A DNA stretch of 23,992 nucleotides from positions 1 to 23,992 of the IMG/VR virus record IMGVR_UViG_3300042938_000527; one strand, 5' to 3'. Source of the DNA: a virus. The first letter of the stretch is position 1. Each line of letters begins with the position of its first letter. Shown here in pieces: positions 2,260 to 17,447 of this stretch. A program made the translations under genes and the position numbers. The notes beneath the pieces are model-generated. The model was not told where the DNA came from and made no database searches. It was given only the letters and a program-made list of their open reading frames with translations.

Positions 2260-3791
2260 CAACCGGAAACTATGTAACGACTAACGAGTTTGTTCCTACT
2301 CTCGTTGTAAGCGACCCCAATGGTAGGTCTACTACTAATCCTGATTTAGCGTTTGATACGTTGCTCGCTAGTGAGCGCAACTTCTCTAACCTTCTCAAAC
2401 GTCATGCGTACGACAGGCTCAATGACTCTCCGTTAGCAAGGTCTAATCCTCCATTTGATACGGGTAGCGCTGGTCGTCTTACTTCGTTAGTTACTAGCGG
2501 ATCGGGAGGAAATAGCCCACAGATTTCTCGGGGTTATATCCGTAGAAGCAATTTGAATTCGTCAGATCCTACTGACGGGTACCGGTTGTACTTTATGTAT
2601 AACCCCGAAGATATTCAACGTGATTACGTTGCGTACATTGAGCAGAATGCGTTGGACCCTTTCAACACCATTTATGGGTCGAACAACCTAGTAGCACCCC
2701 CGGGTATTCTTAACTTTCAGTTCAGTTTGTTTTTTGATCGTCAAACAGAGAACGCAAATGGGTCTATGCCTCGTGGAGTTCTTGAGGATTATGACTATTT
2801 TGATTTAGTAGTCAGAGGCATGGTCCCCGGTAACCAAACTAATCCCATCCAAGACAACGGAATTATGATGATCAACCCCCGGAATATCACCGTGGTGTTT
2901 GGTCCTCAACTTTCTGTACAAGGACGGGCCTTTAGGGCCTCGGTTCAGTATCAGAAGTTTGACCACAAGATGACCCCTACACGCATGGTCATTACTATGT
3001 CTATGATGGTTTACTACTTCGGGCCGTTGAAAGAAGACTTTACGTTTGCTAGCAGCGATACGGAAAGTACATTTGAAGCCACTATCCCGTATGACGAAAA
3101 CCTACAGTATGAAGTTACATACACAGATGTTAGAGATGCTTCTCTTACTGACGACGTTAATCTGATAAATGCTTCTACTGGGGTAACCAACGCCAGTACT
3201 ACATTAAATAATATCAATGCTATTACAGGACCTTTGAACGGCTCTGCACGTCAAAAAGCCTTACAAGTCGCTATGTCTTTAGGTAACTCTACGGTCCAAT
3301 ACGATCAGGTTAGGCCCATTTCTACCAGCGACCGACCTACTGCTCTAGATTGCTCAGCACTGGTTATTTGGGCATACAACAAGGCCGGGGTGATAGAGGC
3401 TATTGGACAGTCTCCAAGTTCTGGTCGCACCAGCACATTGTTAGATGCCGGTTTTCGTTTAGGTACCGTCATTGCCGGAGCAGGATCTCTTGTTCCTTTT
3501 AATGATGATTTTTTGTCTAACTACCTACAGCCCGGAGATCTTATTCTTAGTAAAGAACTACATGTGGCTATGGTTAAAGAAGTAAGAAACGGGCGAGTGT
3601 ATACATACGAGTCGGCTCCTCCTTGGAGAACAGTAGGTGCTGGAGGACCTCGTGAGTTGAACTTTAGTTTCGGTGCTATTTACGGAAGCCCTAATTTCCA
3701 CACTCATGCCATACGTCCAGCCGGGGCAGGTAACGACACCCTTGCTAATATTGATCCAGCGACTATCGGTAATCTAGGATTGCGAGTTTGA
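2256..3791 (+). CDS. Baseplate/tail protein with C-terminal NlpC/P60-like cysteine peptidase domain
   Basis: A 511-residue protein whose ATG overlaps the previous stop (ATGA). Residues about 90-300 repeat the scaffold of the preceding gene almost motif for motif. After a linker, residues about 330-490 form a different enzyme: ALDCSALVIWAYNKAG with C366 as the likely nucleophile, LQPGDLIL before the catalytic strand, and H436 in KELHVAMV, the order expected in NlpC/P60 peptidases. These enzymes cut peptide cross-bridges or stem peptides of peptidoglycan. A third polar catalytic residue cannot be fixed by eye. With its neighbours it gives the tail tip a glycan-cutting and a peptide-cutting arm on the same structural base. 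A CHAP-type amidase is a close alternative. Confidence 0.85.
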   Translation: MTTGNYVTTNEFVPTLVVSDPNGRSTTNPDLAFDTLLASERNFSNLLKRHAYDRLNDSPLARSNPPFDTGSAGRLTSLVTSGSGGNSPQISRGYIRRSNLNSSDPTDGYRLYFMYNPEDIQRDYVAYIEQNALDPFNTIYGSNNLVAPPGILNFQFSLFFDRQTENANGSMPRGVLEDYDYFDLVVRGMVPGNQTNPIQDNGIMMINPRNITVVFGPQLSVQGRAFRASVQYQKFDHKMTPTRMVITMSMMVYYFGPLKEDFTFASSDTESTFEATIPYDENLQYEVTYTDVRDASLTDDVNLINASTGVTNASTTLNNINAITGPLNGSARQKALQVAMSLGNSTVQYDQVRPISTSDRPTALDCSALVIWAYNKAGVIEAIGQSPSSGRTSTLLDAGFRLGTVIAGAGSLVPFNDDFLSNYLQPGDLILSKELHVAMVKEVRNGRVYTYESAPPWRTVGAGGPRELNFSFGAIYGSPNFHTHAIRPAGAGNDTLANIDPATIGNLGLRV

Positions 3792-12723: not shown

Positions 12724-12758
12724 GAGAGGCCCCTCAGTCCGCCACTGAGGGGCCTCTC
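12724..12758. terminator. Perfect 14-bp stem-loop, probable terminator between convergent genes
   Basis: Left arm 12724-12737 (GAGAGGCCCCTCAG) and right arm 12745-12758 (CTGAGGGGCCTCTC) are exact complements with a 7-base loop. No U-run follows on either strand, so it is not a textbook intrinsic terminator, but GC-rich stems without U-runs are accepted terminators in actinobacteria. It lies just after the last late gene and directly before the end of the - strand gene, so it can stop transcripts from both sides. Confidence 0.8.
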
Positions 12759-12900
12759 ACCCCTCTAGGTAGATATCCAGCATATTCCTGAGATCAGCCG
12801 CCATACGGCGATCTAGGACGATATGGAGTTCTTCATCTACCTCAGTACATATTTCCACAGTCACTGATAAGTCATGCCTGTAGGACAGGATGACAGGCAT
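12757..12900 (-). CDS. Short - strand protein of unknown function
   Basis: The frame runs 47 residues from the ATG at 12900 and ends with LDRRMAADLRNMLDIYLEG, a style seen in small actinobacteriophage proteins where a strand pair (SVTVEIC..., EELHIVLD) is followed by a helix. It is the only plausible gene on the - strand. A longer version from TTG at 12981 (74 residues) is possible, but no ribosome site precedes that TTG and the extra part overlaps a nested inverted repeat. The ATG has only a poor site (AGAAGAG immediately before it) and is itself inside an inverted repeat. The gene is therefore a moderate call; its stop lies inside the terminator stem. Confidence 0.5.
   Translation of the reverse strand: MPVILSYRHDLSVTVEICTEVDEELHIVLDRRMAADLRNMLDIYLEG
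12874..12900 (-). promoter_or_regulatory. Inverted repeat that contains the start codon of the - strand gene
   Basis: ATGCCTGT (12874-12881) and ACAGGCAT (12893-12900) are exact 8-bp complements with an 11-base loop. On the - strand transcript the first arm begins with the AUG start codon, so folding would hide it. It could act as a translational brake or, as DNA, as a repressor site. Confidence 0.4.
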
Positions 12901-12964
12901 CTCTTCTGATTGATAGTGAACGTGTGGATACACGGTTAGTAATTTAGTCGGTACCCTAAGAAAT

Positions 12965-13000
12965 CCACAAGCCCCCCACAAGATTGTGGAAGGCTTGGGG
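12965..13000. promoter_or_regulatory. Nested inverted repeats in the divergent intergenic region
   Basis: Outer arms CCACAAGCC (12965-12973) and GGCTTGGGG (12992-13000) match at 8 of 9 positions. They enclose CCACAA-GA-TTGTGG (12976-12989), a perfect 6-bp-arm inverted repeat. CCACAAG also occurs twice in direct order. The element lies between the ATG of the - strand gene and the replication operon, where an operator or a terminator would be expected; which of the two cannot be told. Confidence 0.4.
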
Positions 13001-13179: not shown

Positions 13180-14229
13180 ATGTCACCTACCTATAGAACG
13201 CTGGACCTAGTCAGAGCGACCTCCTTTGGATGGTCCCAGCAGCACGATCTGAACCACAACGAGTATCAGGTGCTCCAGTTCATCGCCTTGAGGGGTAAAT
13301 CCAACGAGCCGGGAAACGCCTATGCGTGGTTCCCGAAGTATGGGCAAGAGTGGTGGGCCGACATCATGTCGATCTCTCATAACGTCCTCCGAAAGACCCT
13401 CTCACGGCTCCGAAAGAAGGGCCTGATCGTCAATATCAGTGGATCTGCGGACGAGAGATTCACCATGATCAAGGGTTACGGAATACCGGTACACGTCATG
13501 GATGAGTGCAAACAATGGTACGAAGACCGACAGGATATGGTCTACACACAGGTACCAAATGACATCAAGGAATTAGACGAAAATGTGCCATCTGGTCACA
13601 TCGATGTGCCATCTGGTCACATGCATGTGCCATCTGGTCACATTGACAACGCTGTGACCTGCGGAAACGCCCTACATACCCATGTATATACCCAAGAGGG
13701 AACCCAACTCCTTACGGATAGATCGAGATCTTCGATCTCTCCTACACAGACAGAGGACTCAATGAGATACGAAGATGAGTGGAGTGCTCCTAAAGAATCA
13801 CGATCAAAGCCAACTCGGTCGAAGAAGGAGGTTGACGACTTCTCCGTGCCTAGGGAAATGAAGGAGAAGCCCGCCCCGGTCTATGGACCGAACATGCGTT
13901 TGACTCAGCAGTTTCACAAATGCTGGATGGTGTCCCGTGAGAAGCGCCTCAACCTTGCAGTTGACTGGTCAGTTCAAAAGATCTTTCAGGCTCGTATGAA
14001 GTCTTTGCTAGAGACTCATTCTGAAGAAGAGATCTCCGAAATGATTGAGATCTTCTTCCGCATGGTTGATGCAGGTCAGATCTCCTTAAAGGCTGACGAG
14101 TTGTGGAAAGACTTTTGGTACAACAGAGGTCGCTTGCAGAAGATTGCTTCTCAGTCTTCTGACAAACCGGTTGTTGCCACCAGTGACAAGTCTGAACTAG
14201 AACGCTTCCGAGAAAGGATGAACCGATGA
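13180..14229 (+). CDS. Replication initiator-like protein with N-terminal winged helix
   Basis: A 349-residue protein. Residues about 22-100 fit a winged helix-turn-helix (DLNHNEYQVLQFIALRG, then MSISHNVLRKTLSRLRKKGLIVNI), as in phage replisome organisers and DnaD/lambda O-like initiators. Residues about 134-155 hold three copies of a 7-residue repeat with a VPSGH core, encoded by 21-bp DNA iterons. A charged, low-complexity linker (about 185-235) leads to a C-terminal helical domain (about 238-320, RLTQQFHKCWMVSREK..., HSEEEISEMIEIFFRMV) that could contact the loader or helicase. Directly downstream, with an ATGA overlap, is a DnaC-like loader, followed by DnaB and primase genes. Initiator function is inferred from domain, iterons and context; a transcription regulator is less likely. 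Confidence 0.7.
   Translation: MSPTYRTLDLVRATSFGWSQQHDLNHNEYQVLQFIALRGKSNEPGNAYAWFPKYGQEWWADIMSISHNVLRKTLSRLRKKGLIVNISGSADERFTMIKGYGIPVHVMDECKQWYEDRQDMVYTQVPNDIKELDENVPSGHIDVPSGHMHVPSGHIDNAVTCGNALHTHVYTQEGTQLLTDRSRSSISPTQTEDSMRYEDEWSAPKESRSKPTRSKKEVDDFSVPREMKEKPAPVYGPNMRLTQQFHKCWMVSREKRLNLAVDWSVQKIFQARMKSLLETHSEEEISEMIEIFFRMVDAGQISLKADELWKDFWYNRGRLQKIASQSSDKPVVATSDKSELERFRERMNR
13583..13643. repeat. Three tandem 21-bp iterons inside the initiator gene, candidate replication origin
   Basis: The 19-base unit ATGTGCCATCTGGTCACAT occurs exactly at 13583-13601, 13604-13622 and 13625-13643, spaced 21 bases apart with 2-base linkers CG and GC. The junctions are perfect 12-bp palindromes: CACATCGATGTG (13597-13608) and CACATGCATGTG (13618-13629). 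The VPSGH codons are identical in all copies, while the linker codons change the amino acids (Ile-Asp to Met-His) yet keep the palindrome. That points to selection on the DNA. Iterons inside the initiator gene are the arrangement of phage lambda O. A partial match (TGTGACC) follows at about 13652. Confidence 0.75.
13720..13738. repeat. Palindrome with three GATC sites near the iterons
   Basis: AGATCGA (13720-13726) and TCGATCT (13732-13738) are exact 7-bp complements around GATCT, giving three GATC sites in 17 bases. It lies about 80 bases downstream of the iterons, within the linker-coding part of the initiator gene. It could be a further origin element; it is also compatible with plain codon usage for Ser/Arg residues. 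Confidence 0.35.
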
Positions 14230-14795
14230 TTCGATCAGCAGAAAACCAGTTCATCACTGGATCAAGTATCCCTAAGACCCCAAGTATCGATATCTCCTCT
14301 AATTCTTTGATTGAGGAATACATGCTTTCTTCGGGATGGGAGAGCGGTATAGGTATTCTCATGCTGGGAACTGCTGGTTGTGGGAAGACCACTACCGGTA
14401 TTGAGATTCTCAAGCAGATCCATAAGGTCAATCGGACTGAGATGTTCTATTGGACCGAGTACGACTTCCTTGCTGACCTTCGTAACTTGTGGCGCATGGA
14501 GGAACTGTCTCAAAAGTATTCACGGGACGATGCGCTGTGGAATGAATACACCGAGTGGGAGCGTTCCTTTTGGAACATGAAGGAATCCCCGTTCTTGTTT
14601 TTGGATGATGTCGGTCGTGGTTACACACCAATGCAGACATACGAAGTTGAGAACCTTCTCCGACTTCGGGAGAACAAACGACTTCCCAACATAATTGCTT
14701 GTCAGAACGGTCTTTGGGACAACTTGCCCTCAGGCTTCAGATCTGTGGTAGAACGCAACAGCATGACAATTCGGCTTGATGCGAGGAACCTCTGA
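14226..14795 (+). CDS. DnaC-like helicase loader ATPase
   Basis: A 189-residue AAA+ protein. Walker A is GTAGCGKTT (residues 48-56), Walker B FLFLDDVG (123-130), a sensor-1-like IIACQN (156-161), and an arginine-finger candidate R177 in FRSVVERN, which matches the DnaC/IstB-type pattern ('RV.ER'). DnaC-like proteins load the replicative helicase on DNA at the origin using ATP. The N-terminal region before the ATPase is only about 45 residues, short for a helicase-binding domain. It overlaps the initiator gene by ATGA and is followed, one gene later, by DnaB, which supports the call. Confidence 0.85.
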   Translation: MIRSAENQFITGSSIPKTPSIDISSNSLIEEYMLSSGWESGIGILMLGTAGCGKTTTGIEILKQIHKVNRTEMFYWTEYDFLADLRNLWRMEELSQKYSRDDALWNEYTEWERSFWNMKESPFLFLDDVGRGYTPMQTYEVENLLRLRENKRLPNIIACQNGLWDNLPSGFRSVVERNSMTIRLDARNL

Positions 14796-15229
14796 TGGAA
14801 AATGGTGACATTGCAACGTGGATGGACAACCGAATCATTGTTGTACTTGAAGGCATCCTTGCTCAGGTTCCTCCCCCCGATACGCATCGCTCAGGAATCA
14901 TTCGCCAGCATAAGGAAATTGAGTGGGTCTCTGCTGATAATTGGGGCTGGAACAAACAGGCAATCAAACTCATAAATGACAAGGCTTACCGCTTGAACAC
15001 TCCTGTTGATATTGTCACCTTCATTGATCCCGAGGTGGGAGATATGGCTGCTGAGTGGCTAGAGAAATACGAGGTCCGTGTTTCAGGATGTGACTACAGC
15101 GATTTCGATATGTTCTGTGAATCACTTACTTGGCGACCCAATGTGCATCACGTTGTTGATTCGGTTCCTGAGAGGCTTGATCGTTACGGGATTCGTGCTT
15201 ACGAAACTCAGTACGGAGGAATGTTCTAA
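14795..15229 (+). CDS. Small HAD-like protein, catalytic residues apparently altered
   Basis: A 144-residue protein between the loader and helicase genes, starting in a TGATG overlap. The order of elements recalls a small HAD-fold phosphatase: an N-terminal strand and turn VVLEGIL (16-22) where DxDGxL would be expected, a central strand ending in Thr (DIVTFID, 72-78), and a C-terminal VVDSVPERLDRYGIRAY (120-136), the usual acidic motif IV. If that alignment is right, the nucleophile Asp is replaced by Val, so it may be inactive or have a structural role. The fold is my inference; I cannot name the function. No close relative is recognised. Confidence 0.6.
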   Translation: MENGDIATWMDNRIIVVLEGILAQVPPPDTHRSGIIRQHKEIEWVSADNWGWNKQAIKLINDKAYRLNTPVDIVTFIDPEVGDMAAEWLEKYEVRVSGCDYSDFDMFCESLTWRPNVHHVVDSVPERLDRYGIRAYETQYGGMF

Positions 15230-16555
15230 GTGGACACACAGAACGCCTGCCTTTCAAAGATGGTTCTTGAGGGTGAACTACTTCCGTTCATTGAGTCAAA
15301 GATCTCCGATGAATTCTTTCCTGACGATCGACACGCTCAGATTTGGGGAATGGTTCTTGGTCATTACAAGAAGTATGGAAACCCACCATCTGAAGATGTA
15401 ATTTATAAGGCTTATCCCACATACGAGTTCCTTGTTTACCCGGAGCCGGTTGGTTATTACCTCAACCAACTCAAGCAGGACCGTAAGAAAGTCATCCTTA
15501 CTACTCATGTGCAGGAATACATCCAGCGCTTGAATGAGGAGGAAGGTCCTGACATTGGTGATGACTTGGAGGTCATCCTCCGTCAGGGTATGGCTCAGGC
15601 CGCTCACGAGATTTCCCAAGGGAGAGACACCGACTTCTTCCTTTCACATGATCGAATTATGGATCGTCTTCGTGATCGCCGTGACAACCCCGGCTATCTC
15701 CGAGGAATTACTACAGGTCTTGACGGCATTGACCGGCTTACTGGCGGACTTCAGCCGGAACAGTTGATAACGATGGTTGGAACTCCGAAGGCTGGTAAAT
15801 CCAGCATCCTTCTTAAAATGGCATTTAATGCCCACCGAAACGGCAATGCCGTATTGTTCGTTACTTTCGAAATGGGTACCGAAGAGCAGGAAGATCGTTT
15901 AGTTTCTCTCATATCAGGAGTAGGTCTAACAAAGATCCTCACCGGTACGTTCACTCCGGTTGACGAAGAAAAGATTCGTAAAGCGTTGCTACTGCGTAAG
16001 GCTATGTCGGGGTTCACTATCACTAGCGATATCACGAGCGCCATCACGGTCTCAGGTGTGCAAGCAAAGATTCAGCAGTACCAACCGACTCTTGTCATTG
16101 TCGATGGCGTATATCTTATGGACGATGAGGGCGGGAACGATAAGGGAACTCCTCAGGCTCTCACCAGTATTACCCGAGGCTTTAAGCGTCTTGCACAGAC
16201 GACACGCATACCTATCGTGATATCCACTCAGGCCATGCTGTATCGCTCTAAGGGCGGCTTGAAGATGGAATCCATCGGATACTCCTCCTCGTTTGCTCAG
16301 GACTCTGACATTGTCTTCGGTGTTGAGCCTCACGAGCAGATTCAAGGTATGTCACGATTTAAGGTTCTTGCTTCCCGATCAAGTCCTAAAGGTGAAGCCT
16401 TTATCAACTTTGATTGGAGTCAAGGTCTAATTGAAGAGGTGGACAAAAACACCTATGAGCAGATGATTAATAATCAAATGCCTATCGCCAATTCTAGCGG
16501 CGCTCCAAAACCATCGTCACTTCACAGCCAATGGGACGACGAAGATGTTGCTTGA
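15230..16555 (+). CDS. dnaB: Replicative DNA helicase, DnaB-like
   Basis: A 441-residue protein from GTG at 15230, with GGAGGA (15215-15220) upstream. The N-terminal helical domain (about 1-125) is followed by a RecA-like core: GLDGIDRLTGGL (163-174), Walker A GTPKAGKSS (184-192), the catalytic Glu in VTFEMG (about residue 214), Walker B LVIVDGVYLM (288-297), a sensor-like VISTQ (330-334), and an arginine-finger-type SRSSPKGEAFINF. DnaB family helicases are hexamers that unwind DNA at the fork. The loader gene upstream and the primase downstream make a compact replisome set. It overlaps the primase start by 11 bases. Confidence 0.92.
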   Translation: MDTQNACLSKMVLEGELLPFIESKISDEFFPDDRHAQIWGMVLGHYKKYGNPPSEDVIYKAYPTYEFLVYPEPVGYYLNQLKQDRKKVILTTHVQEYIQRLNEEEGPDIGDDLEVILRQGMAQAAHEISQGRDTDFFLSHDRIMDRLRDRRDNPGYLRGITTGLDGIDRLTGGLQPEQLITMVGTPKAGKSSILLKMAFNAHRNGNAVLFVTFEMGTEEQEDRLVSLISGVGLTKILTGTFTPVDEEKIRKALLLRKAMSGFTITSDITSAITVSGVQAKIQQYQPTLVIVDGVYLMDDEGGNDKGTPQALTSITRGFKRLAQTTRIPIVISTQAMLYRSKGGLKMESIGYSSSFAQDSDIVFGVEPHEQIQGMSRFKVLASRSSPKGEAFINFDWSQGLIEEVDKNTYEQMINNQMPIANSSGAPKPSSLHSQWDDEDVA

Positions 16556-17447
16556 TATCGAAAGCATCCTCTACGAACTTGATATTCACATCTTAAGGGA
16601 GACCGGCGATGAACTATTGGCGAAGTGCCCGATGCACTTGGCACGAACCGGTAAAGAAGACGGACATCCATCTTGGTCAATCAATGCCAAGACCTATGTC
16701 CACCACTGTTTCTCTTGCGGATATGCGGGATCTCTATCAACTCTCTACCGAGACGTTGTGGGTGAAGTTCCCGACGACTTGGAGTGGGAACTATCCAAGC
16801 AGTCTGTGCTCTCATCGTTCGAACGGTCAAAGTCTGTAGAGAAGGAAGTAGGGCCGTCAATAGACGAGTGGTCCTTGCATAACTACACCGACTTACCTGA
16901 TCGAATGCTTGAGCGCCGTTACTTATCCCGTGATGCTGTAGACCATTTCGAGATCCGATGGGACAAGACGAACAAGACATGGGTAATACCTGTTCGATCC
17001 CCTAACGGAATTCTTATGGGGTATCAGTTTCGTCAGAAGGGAATTGTTCTTAACCACCCGACCGGCATGGAGAAGTCAACCACTCTCTTCGGGTTTCATC
17101 TATTTAAGAACGAGAACAAGATCACCATCGTTGAGTCTCCCCTAGACGCTGTTCGCTTGTACGGAGTTGGAGTTCCAGCGGTGTCCAGTTTTGGTGCAGC
17201 AATTAGTTCTGAACAGATGAATCTACTATCACGGACTTTCCGATATGTAGTTTCTGCTATGGACAACGATTCTGTTGGTAAACGTGCAACAGACCTGCTA
17301 CACAAGCGCCTTACAAAACAAGGTTGTGTAGTATTTGATTTTGATTACAGCGGGCTTGGCGTAAAAGATCCCGGCGACGTAGTGTCCGACCAAGACCTAT
17401 TTTCTGCTTGGAACCGAAGCATTTCACTCAATCTGACTAACTACTAG
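16545..17447 (+). CDS. dnaG: DNA primase, DnaG-like (zinc finger plus TOPRIM)
   Basis: A 300-residue protein. The zinc-binding domain uses C28-x2-H31 and C55-x2-C58 (CPMH ... CFSCG), the CHC2 type. The TOPRIM core shows E198 in IVESPLDA, D240-x-D242 in SAMDNDSVGKRA and D275-x2-D278 in KDPGD, which bind catalytic metals for RNA primer synthesis. Residues 105-185 are the usual N-terminal subdomain (YLSRDAVDHFEIRWD..., GYQFRQKG). It lacks the C-terminal helicase-binding domain of bacterial DnaG, typical for short phage primases. The strong ATG at 16545 is chosen because it gives a complete zinc domain and overlaps the helicase gene. Confidence 0.92.
   Translation: MLLDIESILYELDIHILRETGDELLAKCPMHLARTGKEDGHPSWSINAKTYVHHCFSCGYAGSLSTLYRDVVGEVPDDLEWELSKQSVLSSFERSKSVEKEVGPSIDEWSLHNYTDLPDRMLERRYLSRDAVDHFEIRWDKTNKTWVIPVRSPNGILMGYQFRQKGIVLNHPTGMEKSTTLFGFHLFKNENKITIVESPLDAVRLYGVGVPAVSSFGAAISSEQMNLLSRTFRYVVSAMDNDSVGKRATDLLHKRLTKQGCVVFDFDYSGLGVKDPGDVVSDQDLFSAWNRSISLNLTNY

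Follow-up and report, generated by a model that had tools for sequence, protein, structure and literature searches.

Why a viral gene should carry three exact copies of a 19-bp sequence within its coding region is the question raised by the window, a virus record of 23,992 bp in which tail and baseplate genes are followed by a replication block and all larger predicted genes lie on the plus strand. Our analysis indicates that the repeat array is very probably the core of a phage replication origin situated inside the initiator gene, resembling that in lambda O.

The gene carrying the array is an open reading frame of 349 amino acids (13180..14229, plus strand) that was assigned as a putative replication initiator based on AlphaFold2 modelling and fold matches. 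Its stop codon is overlapped by 4 bp by the start of a gene encoding a DnaC-like helicase loader (14226..14795, plus strand; PHROG_50, E 7.5e-8). Further 3', the order of genes is a conserved 144-amino-acid protein (14795-15229), a DnaB-like replicative helicase (15230..16555, plus strand; E 5e-61), a DnaG-like primase (16545..17447, plus strand; E 1.8e-37), an SNF2 helicase and a family-A polymerase. The 144-amino-acid protein between the loader and DnaB genes matched no known family and is common to BRock-like Streptomyces phages at 24–27% identity. Upstream, between a 281-amino-acid gene and the initiator, a minus-strand open reading frame of 74 amino acids (12757-12981) is kept as a protein (82% in G001/G005, 51% in G004) and possibly encodes a small regulator divergent from the initiator.

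Relatives of the initiator gene were identified by scans of IMG/VR, with protein identities of 91% (L004 and L005), 67% (L006), 60% (L007) and 41% (L015). L004 and L005 are identical over the initiator gene, leaving four distinct relatives, and further viral scans, other anchors included, recovered the same contigs only. The initiator group, window included, consists of five lineages represented by contigs without an isolate. No relatives of the initiator were found in the phage collection, the plasmid collection or GTDB genomes, nor any of the loader in GTDB genomes; the phages carrying this initiator are a group not described before.

AlphaFold2 models of five family members gave a winged-helix N-terminal domain (residues ~7–123), a disordered linker (~122–231) and a helical C-terminal domain (~237–325). 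The pLDDT of the winged helix was 70–90 in the core, with a mean of 75.7 when modelled alone, and its best matches in the PDB were MarR-type dimeric DNA binders (best E 8e-4, TM 0.4–0.6). Among viral models, near-full-length fold alignments were obtained to phage HTH proteins, and slightly weaker ones to proteins named replication initiators or lambda GpO-like. TM-scores of these viral matches were low, as expected from the long unstructured linker, and we treat them as supporting evidence only. A search of protein families, Pfam and NCBIfam included, gave nothing above threshold, the weak matches being to HTH, MarR and replication-initiation models; a sequence search of solved structures gave no match, and the RepA_N domain (PF06970) was not detected by Pfam in any of the five members. 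The array (residues 135–155) is located in the disordered linker.

Three exact 19-mers at 21-bp spacing, as first read from the sequence, were confirmed, with ATGTGCCATCTGGTCACAT at 13583, 13604 and 13625 (iterons 1 to 3, 13583..13601, 13604..13622 and 13625..13643, plus strand). No further match to ATGTGCCATCTGGTCACAT with up to three mismatches occurs in the window (chance expectation 0.03). The encoded peptide is VPSGH-ID-VPSGH-MH-VPSGH with linker codons ATC GAT and ATG CAT, also as described before. All four distinct relatives contain three units of 21-bp period at the same position in the gene, and in their contigs (14.6–48 kb) the iteron sites lie inside the initiator gene only. Each unit is a dyad with arms of 7 bp and a spacer of 5 bp (7-N5-7), the first in the window being ATGTGCC-ATCTG-GTCACAT. 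The arms are ATGTGAC-N5-GTCACAT in the 91%, 67% and 60% relatives with a few exceptions, the window arm having one mismatch to ATGTGAC (C at the sixth base), and ACGATTC-N5-GAATCGT in L015. In all five phages the first base of each dyad is at codon position 2. A CRP/FNR site (16-bp TGTGA-N6-TCACA) was considered and rejected, as the spacer is 7 in this group and the arms of L015 are unrelated.

The sequence-only reading had also taken the 12-bp palindromes at the junctions between units as a sign of selection. They are indeed perfect in the window (CACATCGATGTG and CACATGCATGTG); the relatives, however, keep only the arms, and the central dinucleotide of the junction is self-complementary in 6/10 cases over the five phages and in 0/2 in the 91% relative. 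That the 19-mer is the unit follows from the conservation of the first and last arms, which would be unpaired under a junction-based unit. Since the conserved symmetric unit is thus the 19-bp dyad, the junction palindromes mostly follow from adjacency and are probably, in large part, a by-product of dyads set side by side.

Selection on the DNA was assessed against a null in which codons were randomised by gene usage with the protein held fixed. Arm pairs matched at 17–21 of 21 positions where 10–14 were expected (P<=0.0011 in every phage), and under the same randomisation the iteron copies resembled one another beyond what the peptide demands (P<=0.0015). Shared degenerate codons of the array were identical in 10/10 cases between the window and L006, 9/9 between the window and L007 and 9/9 between L006 and L007, compared with 45–49% in the rest of the initiator gene (83/169 for window and L006; p about 0.001 for the iterons at 10/10 and the 12-mers described below at 13/14). 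Weaker pairs in the array were L005/L006 (10/14) and window/L005 (14/17), and in six neighbouring genes the best 36-codon windows reached 20/27 synonymous identity. The synonymous and dyad tests draw on the same sequences, so they are not independent of each other. The sequence-only reading had named relatives with scrambled synonymous codons under the same peptide repeat as a refutation of its origin; between the window, L006 and L007 the shared codons of the array proved identical instead.

We regard L015 as the strongest evidence for selection on the array DNA. In this relative both the site sequence and the peptide have been replaced, while the number, period, dyad geometry and codon phase of the units are kept; array peptides differ wholly among the phages (VPSGHID, VTNSHNH, VKYSHTD and NDSDGIV). 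Because L015 retained three 21-bp dyads through this replacement, the comparison shows, as far as sequences can, that it is the array DNA rather than the repeated peptide that is under selection, so that the earlier claim of such selection, made from synonymous identity, is borne out both by the relatives' codons and by the geometry in L015. The predicted recognition helix (residues 67–79) also differs between L015 and the window (TIGRLKKALVGLRK versus SHNVLRKTLSRLRK), and judging from this one case the initiator protein and its sites may have changed together.

A second cis element that the first reading overlooked, four tandem 12-mers of AWACCC type, is located at 13676..13723 on the plus strand (ATACCCATGTAT, ATACCCAAGAGG, GAACCCAACTCC and TTACGGATAGAT; residues about 166–182, again in the disordered linker). 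The iterons had been given as the extent of the origin (13583-13643); they stand, but the end does not, as the region reaches at least 13723, ~80 bp further downstream. Relative to iteron 1 the 12-mers begin at +93, +105, +117 and +129 in the window, L004/L005, L006 and L007, and at +94, +107, +120 and +132 in L015, and L015 shares ACATACCCATGTA exactly with the window. Whereas the 12-mers of the other phages are in codon position 2 throughout, those of L015 are in positions 3, 1, 2 and 2; with three reading frames in use, selection there cannot be directed at the peptide. No AT-rich unwinding tract was found adjoining the iterons, where this conserved repeat tract stands instead. Thermodynamic prediction placed the tract in easily melted DNA for the window, L006 and the 91% relative, with no clear sign of this for L007 and L015. 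A G-quadruplex in the tract was rejected as a candidate, the minus-strand GGG runs counted by eye numbering four in the window and three in L006 and L015.

Weaker synonymous constraint was observed in a block 5' of the iterons (13456..13500, plus strand; AAGGGTTACGGAATACC...), where synonymous codons were identical in 9/10, 9/11 and 10/12 cases (p 0.01–0.13). The block may represent a third cis or origin element, or strong constraint on the protein. Within it, TTACGGAATACC echoes TTACGGATAG at 13712.

Sites for a winged-helix protein inside its own gene could also form an operator array through which the protein autoregulates by blocking transcription of the gene, with replication starting elsewhere. 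Dyads and a MarR-type winged helix suit a repressor equally well, autoregulatory binding would leave the same iteron footprint, and binding sites alone do not separate an operator from an origin. However, the sites are ~400 bp inside the gene with none near the promoter, the conserved 12-mers at fixed distance together with the loader, DnaB and primase genes downstream constitute the anatomy of an origin, and it is phage HTH proteins of replication type that give the near-full-length fold matches; we therefore consider an operator unlikely. Tandem dyads are also found at centromeres, which makes a partition or packaging site for another protein conceivable, but among the ten proteins around the site that were scanned there was no ParA/ParB-like or terminase match, and the location within an initiator gene, with the sites replaced inside the gene of their probable binder, makes this reading very improbable. 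Least credible of all is selection on the VPSGH peptide with DNA identity left by recent tandem duplication, for although the window, taken by itself, shows identical copies that stay in frame, the array is older than the divergence to 41% identity, dyad, period and codon phase are constant under wholly different peptides, synonymous codons are fixed, and AlphaFold predicts disorder at the repeat.

An origin is therefore the reading that we favour, and at the sequence level it appears well supported. The initiator probably binds the three sites within its own gene. Dimers of the winged-helix protein would bind the three 19-bp dyads, which the 21-bp period would place on the same face of the helix, and the resulting nucleoprotein complex could expose or capture the 12-mers, ~30 bp 3' of the last iteron, as the site of opening and loading. 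Delivery of the phage DnaB helicase would then fall to the DnaC-like loader, whose gene comes next, and the repeated peptide would be a flexible linker that takes its sequence from the DNA sites. We infer that the initiator dimerises and binds, that the DNA opens, that the helicase is loaded and that replication starts at the array. A GC-skew check suggested earlier lent no support, as neither all sites nor fourfold sites, compared left and right, showed a significant switch at the locus.

The origin of lambda is likewise located in the O gene (PMC7466680), an arrangement that extends to other lambdoid phages, and the lambda iterons are inverted repeats binding O dimers (PMC5043065), whereas plasmid iterons are mostly direct repeats and not dyads (PMC5043065). 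The parallel with lambda O drawn in the sequence-only reading holds for the layout, that is a winged helix, in-gene iterons in a disordered linker, a C-terminal domain and a loader gene that shares 4 bp with the initiator gene, as P overlaps O; it does not extend to sequence homology (hhalign probability 0.1% and no match to the Pfam O family). Features of a lambda-type in-gene origin present here are dyad iterons between the DNA-binding and C-terminal domains, selection on the DNA and a loader gene directly downstream. In both phages the dyad iterons come just after the winged helix (codons about 117–145 in lambda, 135–155 here), with a second conserved tract on their downstream side. Lambda differs in its dyad sequence and in iteron spacing (20/24/23 bp in several codon phases, against 21/21 in one phase), its downstream tract has 27% GC compared with 47% in the tandem 12-mers, and the phage described here encodes its own DnaB.

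Nearly the same three-part plan is found in pSK41 Rep (319 amino acids; N-terminal domain 1–120, linker 121–199, C-terminal domain 200–319), with four Rep boxes in the middle of the gene and an origin-encoded linker that is dispensable as protein (PMC5703833). That system, however, belongs to a plasmid and to the Gram-positive RepA_N family, while the initiator here has no Pfam or NCBIfam family match, and the C-terminal domain of pSK41 Rep contacts primase (PMC5703833), whereas here a loader gene comes next. For the 12-mers the closest likeness is oriV of RK2, in which four tandem 13-mers lie beside the iterons, as four 12/13-mers do here; TrfA binds a single strand of the RK2 13-mers and all four are needed (PMC4081077), but they are AT-rich (TAAACnTTnTTTT).

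An in-gene origin is thus known in kind (lambda O, RepA_N), and what is new in detail is the initiator family, the replacement of sites under an unchanged geometry and 12-mers that do not depend on the reading frame. Tentatively, and somewhat short of probable, these could add up to a composite origin within the gene, whose geometry stays fixed while exchange of the sites goes hand in hand with exchange of initiator specificity, and whose 12-mers, sequence-specific and not AT-rich, take the place of the usual AT-rich unwinding element. The fixed geometry may, with similar reserve, be three 7-5-7 dyads at 21 bp with tandem 12/13-mers at +93, and the 12-mer tract might be kept even in other reading frames of the gene. 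The group offers a natural experiment on coding DNA doubling as an origin, in which a complete exchange of the sites left the layout intact and the linker followed. It predicts a pairing of initiator and sites that can be tested by swapping, and its tract of conserved repeats, which are not AT-rich, also makes the opening of such an origin a testable matter.

By their other genes, the nearest isolated phages are of the Streptomyces BRock type (~30% identity). The regions fetched from these gave no tblastn match to the initiator, and no tandem repeats of iteron type were present in the matching region. As BRock-like phages are without a detectable initiator homologue, a change of initiation system has taken place in one lineage or the other. 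In the Streptomyces phage GiJojo (L020), gene 100 (2753-3229) encodes a protein of 158 amino acids directly 5' of the loader. It aligns weakly with the C-terminal domain of the initiator (WKDF/WRDF; probability 5%), suggestive at most that it is perhaps a stand-alone C-terminal domain in phages without the winged helix and in-gene origin. Elsewhere in the window, two adjacent tail genes share a stretch of DNA with 66% identity (1112-1514 and 2584-2980) followed by different C-terminal parts, as if this stretch had been duplicated.
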